Part shown: positions 6,882-22,930 of the stretch, in pieces
Layout: the number at the start of each line of letters is the position of its first letter
How positions within the stretch are numbered: the first letter of the stretch is position 1
IMG/VR virus record: IMGVR_UViG_3300042890_000093
Location: 1 to 30,281 of that record
Strand: one strand, 5' to 3'
DNA: 30,281 nucleotides
Origin: a virus
Position numbers and translations under genes: made by a program
The notes under the pieces: model-generated
Databases searched by the model: none
Told to the model about the DNA's origin: nothing
What the model saw: only the letters and a program-made list of their open reading frames with translations

Positions 6882-8416
6882 AGATTGAAGTCCCAATTAC
6901 ACTAACAGCTGCGGATTCACAATCTCGCACAATCTCTGGCCAGATCGTTACATGGGGCGAGCAGGGCAACACTTCTGCTGGTCCAACTATCTTCGCTTCA
7001 GATTCAATCAAATTTAACAAGAACATCAAACTGCTCCTAGAGCATGATCGCACACGTCCGATCGGCAAACTGATCGCACACGAGATCACCGATTCAGGCA
7101 TCGTAGCAACATTCAAGATCGCTGAAACAGCGGCAGGAAATGACAGCCTTATCGAAGCATCAACTGGATTACGCGATGGATTCTCAGTCGGCGTTAAGGT
7201 CGATGCATGGGACAACCAAGATGGCGTCATGGTCATCAGCAAGTCATCGATCGTCGAGACTTCACTCGTCACCGATCCAGCAATCGATTCAGCGCGTGTT
7301 GCTGAAGTCGCTGCATCAGAAGATTCTGCTCCTGAAGAGGTAGCAGATGCAACCCAACCAACAGAAGGAGAACAAGTGTCAGACACTACCGTTCCAGAAG
7401 CTCCTGCCGTAACTGAAGCGGTAGAAGCGACAAGAGTAGAGGCTGCTGCTCCAAAGCCAGCATTCTACGCAACTCCACGCATCAACACTAACCTCACAGC
7501 AGGTCAGTTCCTTGAGGCGAACATCAAGGCATCAATGGGCGATGACGAAGCACGCATGATCGTCAAGGCTACAAACGATACTTCAACAAACACAGGACTT
7601 ACACTCGCTCCACACCTAAACGAGTTCGTAACAACTTCAATCGATGGCCGTCCAGCCGTAGATGCAGTTTCTCGTGGCAACCTAGTCGAAAGCGGAATGT
7701 CATTCACAATTCCTAAGCTTTCAACTGCTCCAACAATCGATTCATCTTCAACAGAAGGCGAAGCACTTGCTGGAACTGAAATGGCAAGCTCATACATCAC
7801 GGTTGATGTTAAGAAGGCGGCCGGACTTCAGACCATAAGCTGGGAGCTCCTCGACAGAAGCTCACCTGCGTTCTACGATGAACTTATCAAGGAACTCAAC
7901 TACGCTTACGCTAAGGCAACAGATCAGGCTGTAGTAGCAGCTCTCGTTGCTGGTGGAACACAGGCAACATCACAAGCGACAACAATCGCAGGCTTTAAGT
8001 CATTCGTTGGCAAAGAAGTTCCAGCGGCTTACGCAGCAGCAGGAAAGTTCGCTAAGAACATCATCGCTAACACAGCATGGTGGGAGACAATCATCTCAGC
8101 AGAGGACACCACAAATCGTCCACTCTTCACAGCGGCTCAGCCATCAAATGCTCCAGGAAACGTTGGAGTAAACTCAATCACAGGAAACGTCATGGGTCTT
8201 AACCTATTCGTCGATCCTCACATGTCAGTAACAACTCTCATCGACGATTCAGCATTCTTAGTCGTTCCAGAGGCAGTTACATTCTACGAGGCTCCAAAGA
8301 CCCAAGTTCAGGTTCAGGCTCTCGCAAATGGTCGCCTACAGGTGGCCGTCTATGGTTACTACGCAATCGGCACCAAGGTGGGTGCTGGTATCCGTCGTTA
8401 CAACATGACTGCATAG
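6878..8416 (+). CDS. Prohead protease-major capsid protein fusion, phage A
   Basis: A 512-residue fusion. Residues 1-150 form an S78-type prohead protease with candidate catalytic His56 (LLLEHDRTRPIG) and Ser103 (LRDGFSVG). An acidic, low-complexity linker (about 145-195) follows. The rest is an HK97-fold major capsid protein with WELLDRSSPAFYDELIKEL, AWWETI and a YGYYAIGTKVG end. The protease removes scaffold-like sequence during maturation. An in-frame AAGGAG-N5-GTG at 7365-7378 would also yield a free capsid protein of about 346 residues. Protease-capsid fusions are known in small actinophages; the internal start is my observation and is repeated in B. Confidence 0.92.
   Translation: MKIEVPITLTAADSQSRTISGQIVTWGEQGNTSAGPTIFASDSIKFNKNIKLLLEHDRTRPIGKLIAHEITDSGIVATFKIAETAAGNDSLIEASTGLRDGFSVGVKVDAWDNQDGVMVISKSSIVETSLVTDPAIDSARVAEVAASEDSAPEEVADATQPTEGEQVSDTTVPEAPAVTEAVEATRVEAAAPKPAFYATPRINTNLTAGQFLEANIKASMGDDEARMIVKATNDTSTNTGLTLAPHLNEFVTTSIDGRPAVDAVSRGNLVESGMSFTIPKLSTAPTIDSSSTEGEALAGTEMASSYITVDVKKAAGLQTISWELLDRSSPAFYDELIKELNYAYAKATDQAVVAALVAGGTQATSQATTIAGFKSFVGKEVPAAYAAAGKFAKNIIANTAWWETIISAEDTTNRPLFTAAQPSNAPGNVGVNSITGNVMGLNLFVDPHMSVTTLIDDSAFLVVPEAVTFYEAPKTQVQVQALANGRLQVAVYGYYAIGTKVGAGIRRYNMTA
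7365..7378 (+). promoter_or_regulatory. Internal ribosome site and GTG start for free capsid protein, phage A
   Basis: AAGGAG (7365-7370), a 5-base spacer and in-frame GTG (7376-7378) lie in the linker between protease and capsid domains, at codon 167. Starting here gives a 346-residue capsid protein. B has the same motif and spacing at its codon 172 (345 residues). Confidence 0.6.
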
Positions 8417-14045: not shown

Positions 14046-14470
14046 AACCTATTCTATGCAAGGCTGGCCAACAATTAAGGGAACAGTTCGATGACTCCTT
14101 CCCTGATCGTGATAGGCGTTCCGATGGTTGGATCGGCGATCTCCGTCATTCAGCGCGTCCTTCTGACCACAATCCTGATCGAGAGACTGGAATTGTTAGA
14201 GCCATCGATGTCGATCGAGATGTCCATAAGTCAGGCAAGCCCGACCTCATGCCAGATATTGCAGATCAGATTCGACTCGCGGCCAAGGCTGGAGAAAAGC
14301 GAATTGCTTACATCATCTTCGCAGGACGAATTGCATCGTCTCGCATGGGCTGGCGCTGGAGACCTTACAAGGGATCTAATCCGCATAATGCCCATCTGCA
14401 TTGTTCTTTCACTAAAGCGGGCGATACAGATGGTTCGTTCTTTAATATCCCGATGCTAGGTGGTAAGTAA
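14042..14470 (+). CDS. Endolysin, M15-type peptidase, phage A
   Basis: A 142-residue protein with the zinc ligands of the M15 (VanY/L-alanyl-D-glutamate peptidase-like) family: SDHNPD (H43), AIDVD (D56) and HNAHLH (H118 or H120, the H-x-H). [11 protein letters not shown] is typical of actinophage members. It would cut peptide cross-links or stem peptides of peptidoglycan. It has no signal peptide and no recognisable cell-wall-binding domain, so it likely needs a holin. B has a CHAP-type enzyme at this position instead. Overlaps neighbours on both sides. Confidence 0.8.
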
Positions 14471-15498
14471 TGGGTCGCGTAACTATAAGCTCTAATAACC
14501 TATTCCCCGGTCCTAAAGGCGAAAAGGGAGATCAGGGAGATCCAGGTGGCCCACCTGGTCCACAGGGTCCAGAAGGTCCACAGGGGCCACAAGGTCCTCA
14601 AGGCCCACAAGGTATTCAAGGCACTCAAGGAAACCCAGGCGCACAAGGCGCAGAAGGCCCAATCGGTTCAACTGGACTAAAGGGCGATAAGGGCGACAAA
14701 GGCGATACTGGAGCAACAGGCGCGACTGGTGCTAAAGGCGACACAGGAGATACTGGAGCGCAAGGCCCATCTGGCGTAGTCACAGTCAATGCTCCACTTA
14801 CCAATGCTGGAACTTCTAGTGCTGCCAATCTTTCAATCTCAGCTGGTACTACTTCTGCCGCTGGTGCGTTGCAACTGACCGACTCAGTAGCCTCGACATC
14901 GACGACTACTGCTGCGACTCCTAATGCGGTCAAGACTGCTTATGACTTTGCAGCAACACGTCAGCCAATAGTTAAAAGAAACTCAGGAGGATATTTTAGA
15001 AGCCCTATAAGCACTTACGCTACTTTTACAGTCACAAATAATAGAATGTATTTATCGCCCATTTTTGTAGATCAATCAACTACTTTTGATCGAATTGCTT
15101 GTAGAGCAGACACAGGGTTTTCAGGCTCATCAACTGTAAGGCTTGGAATCTACGATAGCGATGCAAATAACCAGCCAAGCACTTTAGTCCTTGATGCTGG
15201 AACCGTTGCATTTACTGGCGTCGCAAGCCAGGAAATTACAATTAGTCAGACTTTATCTACAGGACTTTATTGGTTAGCATTCTGCCAACAAGGAACAGCA
15301 CCTACTACGGCGACCTATAGTGGAAATAGTGGTTCTGCAACAATTTTTAATTACTTAATTCCTTTTTCTGGTGGTGGTTCTCTAAACGCAAGCAACATTA
15401 TTGCTTACACATCAAATCCGCACACTGGTGCATTTCCTAGCACAATCACTTCTGGTGTGGCATCGGCCACTGCTTTCGTATGGTTAAGGACTGCATAA
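14470..15498 (+). CDS. Collagen-like tail fibre, phage A
   Basis: A 342-residue protein with a short N terminus, about 29 G-X-Y triplets (residues 14-100), a linker ([20 protein letters not shown] and onward) and a beta-rich C-terminal domain from about residue 162. Collagen-like stalks trimerise and present a receptor-binding tip. The linker is nearly identical in protein to B's fibre, and from 14953 the DNA is identical as far as B can be read. The tip (15000-15480) is AT-richer than the stalk. The stop overlaps the next ATG. Confidence 0.85.
14509..14772 (+). repeat. Collagen-like G-X-Y coding repeat
   Basis: Short 9-base units such as ggtccacag, ggtccagaa and ggcgataag encode Gly-X-Y triplets, early ones rich in GPQ, later ones in GDK, GAT and GDT. 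Such tracts expand and contract by slippage. The B fibre has only a few triplets (about 30004-30054). Confidence 0.85.
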
Positions 15499-21383: not shown

Positions 21384-22930
21384 AGCTAACAACACCAATC
21401 ACGATCACTGCAGCCGATTCAGAATCGCGCACGATCTCAGGCCGCATCGTTGCATTCGATGAGCCTGCAAACGCAAGCACAGGCAAAGTCGTATTTGCTA
21501 AAGGCTCAATTGATCCAGCTCCGGTATTTCTTAACCTAGAGCACGATCGCACACGCAGAATTGGCAAGAGCATGGAGATGTCAATGGATGGCGATAGCGC
21601 GATCAATGCGACATTCAAGATCAGCACCACACAAGCTGGCAATGATGCACTCATCGAAGCAATGGATGGTCTGCGCGATGGATTTAGCGTGGAGCTTGCC
21701 GTCGAGGATTATGTGCAGGAAAAGGGATACATGAAAGTCTTGAAGGCCGAGCTCACAGGAGTTGCGCTTGTCTCAGAGCCTGCAGTGCGATCAGCTCGCG
21801 TTGCAGAAGTCGCAGCGACAGAAGACGATGAAGATTCCGAATCCACACCGGATGAGGATGCAACACCAACACCAACAACAGAAGGAGACGAAGTGGAAAA
21901 CACCGTCACAGACGCGGCAGCCGTTACAGAGACGGTTGAAGCCGCACAGTCAGTCACAGCCGCCAGCACCACTGGCGTATTCACAGCAAAGCCACGCTTA
22001 GATTTCTCAGCTACAAAGCAGCTTGAGATGACAATCAAGGCAGCAATGGGATCTGAAGATGCACGCGCTTATGTACGCGCAGCAGCAGACACCACAGACA
22101 ATGCGGGCTTGGTGCCAACACGCCAGCTCACCACCGTGATCAACGGGCTTGCAAATGCAACACGCAGCAACATCGATGCAATCAGCCGTGGCACATTGCC
22201 TGACGCTGGCATGACATTCGAGATCCCAAAGATCACACAGCTCCCATCAGTAACCGAAGAAGCCGAAGGCGGCACAGTTGCAGATGTCGATCAAAACTCA
22301 GAATTTTTGAGTGTAACTGTGAAGAAGTACAGCGGATCTCAGACATTCTCCGTTGAGCTTTTCGATCGCTCTTCACCACTCTTTGTGGACGAGCTCATGA
22401 GAAATATGGCTGCACAGTACGCAAAGGTCACAGACACTGCAGTGAATGCAGCATTGATCTCAGGTGCATCAGCTGACGCAACAACAACCACAACATATCC
22501 AACAGCTGCCGAATTACTCGGAATCGTTGCTCGCGGCGCTGCATCAGTTTATTCAGGCACACAAGGATTTGCTCGCAATATCATCATGAACACATCCCAA
22601 TGGGCAAATGTCATGACACTGAATGATTCAGGCCGTCCAATCTACAATGCTGCACAGCCACAAAATGCTGGCGGCGCAGTGCGTCCAGATTCAATCCGCG
22701 GCAATGTCGCTGGTCTTGATCTTTATGTCACAGCCAACACAGCTGCAACAACAGACGCAGATGGATCAATCTTGATCGTCAATCCTGATGCATACACATG
22801 GTATGAGTCACCAACATTCCAGTTGCGCGCAGATGTAATTGCAACCGGACAAATCTCAATCATGATGTATGGCTATGGAGCCATCGCCACGAAAATTGGC
22901 TCAGGAGCGTTCAAGAATAACAAGGCGTAA
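21380..22930 (+). CDS. Prohead protease-major capsid protein fusion, phage B
   Basis: A 516-residue fusion like A's. The protease part has candidate catalytic His55 (LNLEHDRTRRIG) and Ser103 (LRDGFSVE). A long acidic linker rich in D, E, T and P follows (about 145-180). The capsid part has FSVELFDRSSPLFVDELMRN, an N-terminal PRLDFSATKQLEM region and ends MMYGYGAIATKIG. An internal AAGGAG-N5-GTG at codon 172 (21882-21895) could give a 345-residue capsid protein. The linker is the least conserved part, yet the ribosome site inside it is kept. Confidence 0.92.
   Translation: MKLTTPITITAADSESRTISGRIVAFDEPANASTGKVVFAKGSIDPAPVFLNLEHDRTRRIGKSMEMSMDGDSAINATFKISTTQAGNDALIEAMDGLRDGFSVELAVEDYVQEKGYMKVLKAELTGVALVSEPAVRSARVAEVAATEDDEDSESTPDEDATPTPTTEGDEVENTVTDAAAVTETVEAAQSVTAASTTGVFTAKPRLDFSATKQLEMTIKAAMGSEDARAYVRAAADTTDNAGLVPTRQLTTVINGLANATRSNIDAISRGTLPDAGMTFEIPKITQLPSVTEEAEGGTVADVDQNSEFLSVTVKKYSGSQTFSVELFDRSSPLFVDELMRNMAAQYAKVTDTAVNAALISGASADATTTTTYPTAAELLGIVARGAASVYSGTQGFARNIIMNTSQWANVMTLNDSGRPIYNAAQPQNAGGAVRPDSIRGNVAGLDLYVTANTAATTDADGSILIVNPDAYTWYESPTFQLRADVIATGQISIMMYGYGAIATKIGSGAFKNNKA
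21882..21895 (+). promoter_or_regulatory. Internal ribosome site and GTG start for free capsid protein, phage B
   Basis: AAGGAG (21882-21887), a 5-base spacer and in-frame GTG (21893-21895), in the linker between protease and capsid domains. Motif, spacing and resulting product length (345 residues) match A (346), although the surrounding linker has diverged. Confidence 0.6.

Follow-up and report, generated by a model that had tools for sequence, protein, structure and literature searches.

Fused protease–capsid genes in the window

The window, that is, the whole stretch of 30,281 nucleotides that was analysed, carries 2 fused prohead protease–major capsid genes on the plus strand, one belonging to phage A (6878–8416; 512 residues) and the other to phage B (21380–22930; 516 residues). 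Gene A was identified from its open reading frame (ORF), Pfam and phrog_2263, and gene B from its ORF, phrog_2263 and its 46% identity to A over the length of the protein. Both proteins match phrog_2263, a major head protein family (E 1.2e-69 and 1.5e-62). The Pfam scan placed Peptidase_S78 at residues 18–146 (E 3.6e-8) and Phage_capsid at residues 260–455 (E 2.7e-10) of A, and gave no match of its own for the B fusion protein. The S78-type protease domain of A, as delimited by Pfam, alignment and AlphaFold2, comprises residues 15–146 (6920–7315, plus strand). Residues H56 and S103, which we take to be the catalytic residues of the S78 protease, are invariant in all 33 aligned fusion sequences, B included. 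In the AlphaFold2 model (33 sequences; mean pLDDT 69.7), the protease domain is followed by a disordered linker of residues 147–201 (7316–7480, plus strand; pLDDT <50) and then by the capsid domain, which Foldseek matched to HK97 and actinophage capsids (best E 2.5e-12). A sequence search of the PDB returned no match for the fusions of A, Decurro or Circum, and only chance-level matches for those of BrokMonster and BlueFeather.

The 2 genes have the make-up of the phrog_2263 fusion class: an N-terminal Peptidase_S78 domain, recognised in A by Pfam and in B by its identity to A and by H56/S103, and a C-terminal, in-frame HK97-fold capsid in both. Genomes of this class are siphoviruses of ~15–17 kb with the portal gene beside the fusion; phage A, in a window that is a joined record, measures ~15.5 kb between repeats, and the ATG of its fusion gene overlaps the portal stop codon. 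The window itself is probably either a product of assembly that joined co-occurring phages or a concatemer. It also contains a tail fibre gene (14470–15498) with collagen-like Gly-X-Y repeats (Pfam Collagen, E 2e-12; Phage_fiber_2).

A tblastn search with the A fusion returned 82 records of all kinds, the cultured relatives being small actinophages annotated with a “major capsid and protease fusion protein”. The main texts of PMC5513430 and PMC7302621 describe protease–capsid fusions as an unusual feature common to the smallest siphoviruses, and report them in clusters AN, AM, AU, EE, AX, FE, CW, DM and EL and in RRH1. The genes of this group have the same architecture as A and B, and the cultured relatives of A and B fall within it. 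Several annotations and extensions in this group deserve mention: (i) gene 5 of CabbageMan is annotated as a “minor capsid and protease fusion protein”, its relatives as “major capsid”; (ii) the Emperor and EricDab fusions have ~120 extra N-terminal residues with no Pfam match, and carry AAAGGA-ATG at codons 121 and 117, respectively, upstream of the protease domain and not after it; (iii) the fusions of Rahul, RRH1 and Jeanie have 657–689 residues, the added sequence being N-terminal to the protease, and the extra pieces of Rahul and RRH1 have no Pfam match; and (iv) the record of Pseudomonas phage Hadban (OR067381.1) has the same match coordinates and identity as Arthrobacter phage Adaia, so its host label may be wrong. 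A scan of viral contigs based on Rahul found nothing. Moraxella phage Mcat12, considered as a fusion relative, was rejected, its protease and capsid genes being separate.

Start-like signals in the linker and their conservation

In A, the Shine–Dalgarno (SD) motif AAGGAG (7365–7370, plus strand) precedes a GTG at codon 167 (7376–7378, plus strand), which falls inside the low-pLDDT stretch of the linker; in B, the same motif (21882–21887, plus strand) precedes a GTG at codon 172 (21893–21895, plus strand). The spacer is AACAA in A and ACGAA in B. The SDs were located by motif search and the GTGs in the sequence itself, and both were examined in relatives and in a codon alignment. The sequence confirms the earlier observation that AAGGAG-N5-GTG stands in frame in both genes and leaves 346 and 345 residues. 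Translation from these codons would give free capsid products beginning VSDTT in A (7376–8416, plus strand; HK97 fold by Foldseek) and VENTV in B (21893–22930, plus strand). When both strands were searched, the window contained 2 matches to AAGGAGNNNNNGTG, exactly the A and B sites, against 0.18 expected, and 2 matches were reached in 1 of 100 dinucleotide shuffles of the window. Of 20,000 codon shuffles per gene that preserved the protein, 283 for A (1.4%) and 949 for B (4.7%) gave a linker that contained a 6-nt SD with an NTG. At these rates the motif in either gene alone is only mildly surprising, and the decision lies with the relatives.

The close relatives were 160 IMG/VR loci, 80 fetched with the A query and 80 with the B query, and every one of them has a GTG or TTG start codon with an SD-like stretch at the site. 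In 148 of the 160, codons 164–181 include an in-frame NTG that is preceded by 5 nt or more of AAGGAGGT, with few other such places in the gene; the 12 that fall short are L104 and the 11 loci of one clade described below. When the longer actinobacterial anti-SD complement is used, 158 pass. L079 fails the longer-tail test only because its contig begins near the site, the 6-nt motif being present, and L104 has only a 4-nt GGAG as SD. Exact matches show that 16S rRNA tails ending in CCTCCTTTCT occur in Microbacterium, Gordonia and Rhodococcus, as well as in many other phyla. Eleven of the 160 loci, a clade lying between L066 and L078, share ACAGAAAGCGAG followed by GTG or TTG, the AGAAAG of which matches the longer anti-SD tail; that this clade has only a signal of this type, whose strength is uncertain, counts against the internal start. 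Further sets of 80 and 10 loci were inspected at the site in part, 15 loci being read, 3 of which are within the 160.

The signal persists where the protein changes. In L086, EGDEV has become EKDDEV and AAGGA is retained in another reading frame; in L060, L064 and L158, the SD-to-start spacing is shifted and the signal is retained; and in six loci (L078, L205, L206, L207, L208 and L245), Val is replaced by Leu through GTG to TTG.

Codon usage was analysed in 152 of 162 genes (A, B and the 160 loci), after removal of incomplete genes and of those containing N. At the site, 73 of 74 A genes and all 78 B genes have GTG as the start codon, and the remaining gene has TTG; these counts come from a script that sought GTG/TTG near the SD and found one in every gene, and the columns of the codon alignment agree. 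GTG is a minority valine codon, with 217 of 2601 in the A genes and 493 of 2906 in the B genes (8–17%). Among the 25 conserved Val columns of the B genes, only the start-site column has a single codon; in the A genes, the neighbouring valine at codon 172 is likewise fixed for one codon. Synonymous diversity was calculated from non-redundant genes (63 of 74 for A and 72 of 78 for B, sequences >97% identical being removed). In both clades, the lowest 5-codon synonymous diversity of the whole gene is at the internal start site, where the ratio of observed to expected diversity is 0.014 (A) and 0.024 (B) versus gene-wide values of 0.70 and 0.82. The linker, which the sequence-only reading had called poorly conserved, is disordered and varies in length, yet conservation is strong over the 48 nt that surround the start, of which the 152 sequences show only 42 distinct versions. 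Judged from this conservation, the start-like signals are under selection.

Selection at the protein level would provide a different account, in which EGD/EEV is a cleavage or assembly motif, the SD and GTG are a by-product of its codons, and the capsid is freed by self-cleavage only. Proteases of the HK97 type do cleave capsid N-termini, and TEGDEVE and TEGEQVS are conserved across most of both clades. However, selection on residues does not account for a single fixed codon, GTG in 78 of 78 and GGA in 71 of 71 B genes, when almost every other Val or Gly column contains a mixture of codons; the residues vary (EKDDEV, EGETLV, SEPTV, SETVL), yet the start codon persists; and distant relatives carry Met at the site amid unrelated flanks. 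We consider this account very unlikely.

The synonymous constraint runs ~10 codons beyond the start (windows 7376–7411 and 21893–21928), for example, 51 of 78 B genes share GCG at codon +7. Since this exceeds the apparent need of a start site, selection may also act on another feature here, such as RNA structure. A hidden overlapping ORF was considered and rejected, the +1 and +2 frames closing within 0–5 codons downstream in some relatives, which leaves no conserved second frame.

Folding predictions place the GTG in a possible hairpin in both phages (A, 7370–7394, plus strand, with GAAC/GUUC outer and GUGUC/GACAC inner pairing; B, 21887–21907, plus strand, with GACG/CGUC outer and GUG/CAC inner pairing). 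For 38 of the 42 distinct windows the predicted fold has the GTG paired, and the registers of the A-type (GAAC/GUUC) and B-type (GACG/CGUC) pairings are shifted relative to each other. Covariation of the hairpin pairs across these 42 windows was not above that of shuffles and is not significant for either hairpin. The accessibility of the site is modest, with a mean within-gene percentile of 0.67 in A and 0.83 in B (11 genes each), and the mean z-scores for structure, taken against synonymous resampling, give a mixed picture along the site. A hairpin that may hold the GTG is treated as a lead only. The downstream constraint and the paired GTG would also suit a start that is used but yields a minor or regulatory short form, or selection for the surrounding RNA element rather than for capsid dosage. 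We regard this as unlikely: pair covariation is no higher than in shuffles, the predicted short form is a complete capsid domain, and the capsid subunit is needed in hundreds of copies.

Candidate internal starts in cultured actinophages and in a separate fusion family

For the cultured phages, ranking in-frame NTGs by anti-SD duplex energy was abandoned; it was noisy in GC-rich phages because spacing was ignored and G–U pairs were allowed, and the linker start often did not come first. SDs were instead called as contiguous Watson–Crick matches with spacing limits. Under a strict rule (in-frame linker ATG with an SD of at least 4 nt), 21 of 24 cultured fusion genes have a linker start, the rule missing Idaho, CabbageMan and Emperor; with the longer anti-SD tail, Idaho (AGAAAG, GTG) and CabbageMan pass. 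In the fusion of Gordonia phage Emperor, neither the strict rule nor the longer tail finds an SD-start in the linker, and the sole candidate of EricDab, a 4-nt SD at the linker edge, is doubtful. By our reading, a candidate linker start is thus present in 22 of the 24 cultured fusions, with Emperor lacking one and EricDab doubtful. The linker SD of Atraxa, Barebow, BonaeVitae, BrokMonster and Whytu is of 4 nt only, which counts against the start. A fusion kept with the SD–start pair lost, which the sequence-only reading had named as a refuting outcome, is seen among the 24 cultured phages only in Emperor and probably in EricDab, and the exact AAGGAG/GTG form is not universal: relatives have AGAAAG, AAGGA or GAGGA as SD, and most cultured phages have ATG as the start.

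Among the cultured fusions, 28 of the 48 ATGs that lie in frame in the linker are preceded by an SD, against 29 of 142 for in-frame ATGs elsewhere (p 1.7e-6) and 2 of 23 for out-of-frame linker ATGs (p 4.7e-5). When the longer tail was used, with a match of 5 nt or more required and GTG accepted as well as ATG, the counts were 18 of 83 in frame in the linker, versus 17 of 532 elsewhere (p 2.7e-8) and 1 of 42 out of frame (p 0.0025); these Fisher tests take kin phages as independent. The same counts bear on the idea that the SD pauses elongating ribosomes at the domain boundary and so aids folding, without initiation. SD-like sequences within genes have been proposed to pause ribosomes, a contested proposal, and the site does lie in a linker that separates 2 folded domains in the AlphaFold2 model. 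Pausing would not require a start codon, whereas an in-frame GTG, TTG or ATG is retained at a spacing typical of starts, and the SD is rare at out-of-frame linker ATGs (the 2 of 23 above), which leaves pausing alone hardly probable.

A second fusion type is common to Circum, Gordon, LibertyBell, Crocheter, Damascus, Uzumaki and Lactococcus phage P118; Circum and Gordon belong both to this 7-gene family and to the 24 cultured fusions. The main text of PMC5513430 describes the fusion of clusters AM and AU (Circum, Gordon) as resembling the cluster AN gene little or not at all in sequence. All 7 genes have GAAGG followed 10 nt later by ATG (TTG in P118; 13 nt in Uzumaki) at one aligned place. This start lies directly before the capsid domain and leaves 413–475 residues in the stretches read, the P118 gene being cut at its end. 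A second candidate start is present in Circum at codon 165. With the Circum fusion as query, tblastn matched 2 places in most of the records listed (457 places across 255 records), which suggests that these genomes contain a second, related stretch.

The start could also be a relic of a pre-fusion capsid gene, now unused. It is located where a capsid gene would begin, and the gene order in unfused phages is portal, protease, capsid (for example in Mcat12, as its annotation reads). A relic would be expected to decay, but the site has the lowest synonymous diversity of the gene in 2 clades, persists across distant fusions and was not seen to be lost in most relatives, and we find a relic extremely improbable. 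The sequence elements and the domain boundaries are seen directly. The earlier proposal of a conserved in-frame internal start is supported by conservation at the nucleotide level, the exchange of GTG, TTG and ATG, an SD that is kept through amino-acid changes, and recurrence in distant and in separate fusion families.

Proposed two-product expression and related systems

We think it likely that nested starts on one mRNA let the fused gene yield both the fusion and free capsid, whose co-assembly would limit the protease dose before the arms are cleaved. Ribosomes initiating at the upstream ATG, which overlaps the portal stop, would make the S78 prohead protease, the disordered linker and the HK97-fold capsid subunit as one chain. 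Other ribosomes would bind the linker SD and start at the GTG (ATG or TTG in relatives), producing the capsid subunit alone with a short N-terminal arm. The fusion would then co-assemble with free subunits, giving a limited dose of protease per prohead, and the protease would finally cleave away the arms and itself. Initiation at the site, the product ratio, co-assembly and cleavage are what we infer from the signals and domains above; the predicted ratio, with few fusions and free capsid subunits in large numbers, is plausible.

The nearest known device is phage lambda C/Nu3, in which an in-frame internal start within the prohead protease gene gives a second head protein without the protease. 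The lambda system differs in that its short product serves as the scaffold, the capsid has a gene of its own and the protease is from another family. A and B share the nested start, having a conserved in-frame start with a ribosome binding site inside a longer gene, but their predicted short product is the whole capsid domain, that is, the major capsid protein. The A/B arrangement would thus work like C/Nu3 without being a member of that class, since its short product is a capsid domain and not a scaffold. In HK97, the gp4 protease and gp5 capsid come from 2 separate genes; A and B combine the same S78 protease and HK97-fold capsid in one gene with nested starts. Gifsy-2 likewise has protease and capsid in one gene, a tripartite protease–scaffold–capsid gene whose protease is ClpP-like.

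Lambda scaffold–protease fusions are mentioned in the main text of PMC5513430. In PMC5513430 and PMC7302621, the actinophage fusion alone is described; the internal start proposed here was not found in their main texts, which contain no word beginning with “internal”. A search of the open-licence literature in PubMed Central yielded no paper that reports an internal start for these fusions, and the GenBank records fetched for the cultured fusions annotate one product.

A broader proposal, for which we see about an even chance, is that nested initiation is a general solution to capsid dosage in protease–capsid fusions of tailed phages, with at least 2 separate S78–capsid families (in actinobacterial and lactococcal phages) keeping a dedicated start at the capsid boundary and the A/B start being also tuned by a hairpin. 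If two-product expression holds, these “fusion” genes are really two-product genes. A one-to-one fusion would mean that one protease is packed per shell subunit, a puzzle that the conserved internal start would remove. The internal start would also show how a 15-kb phage saves a gene, would mean that a product is missing from the fusion-gene annotations of many deposited phage genomes, and gives a simple, testable prediction in Arthrobacter phages.
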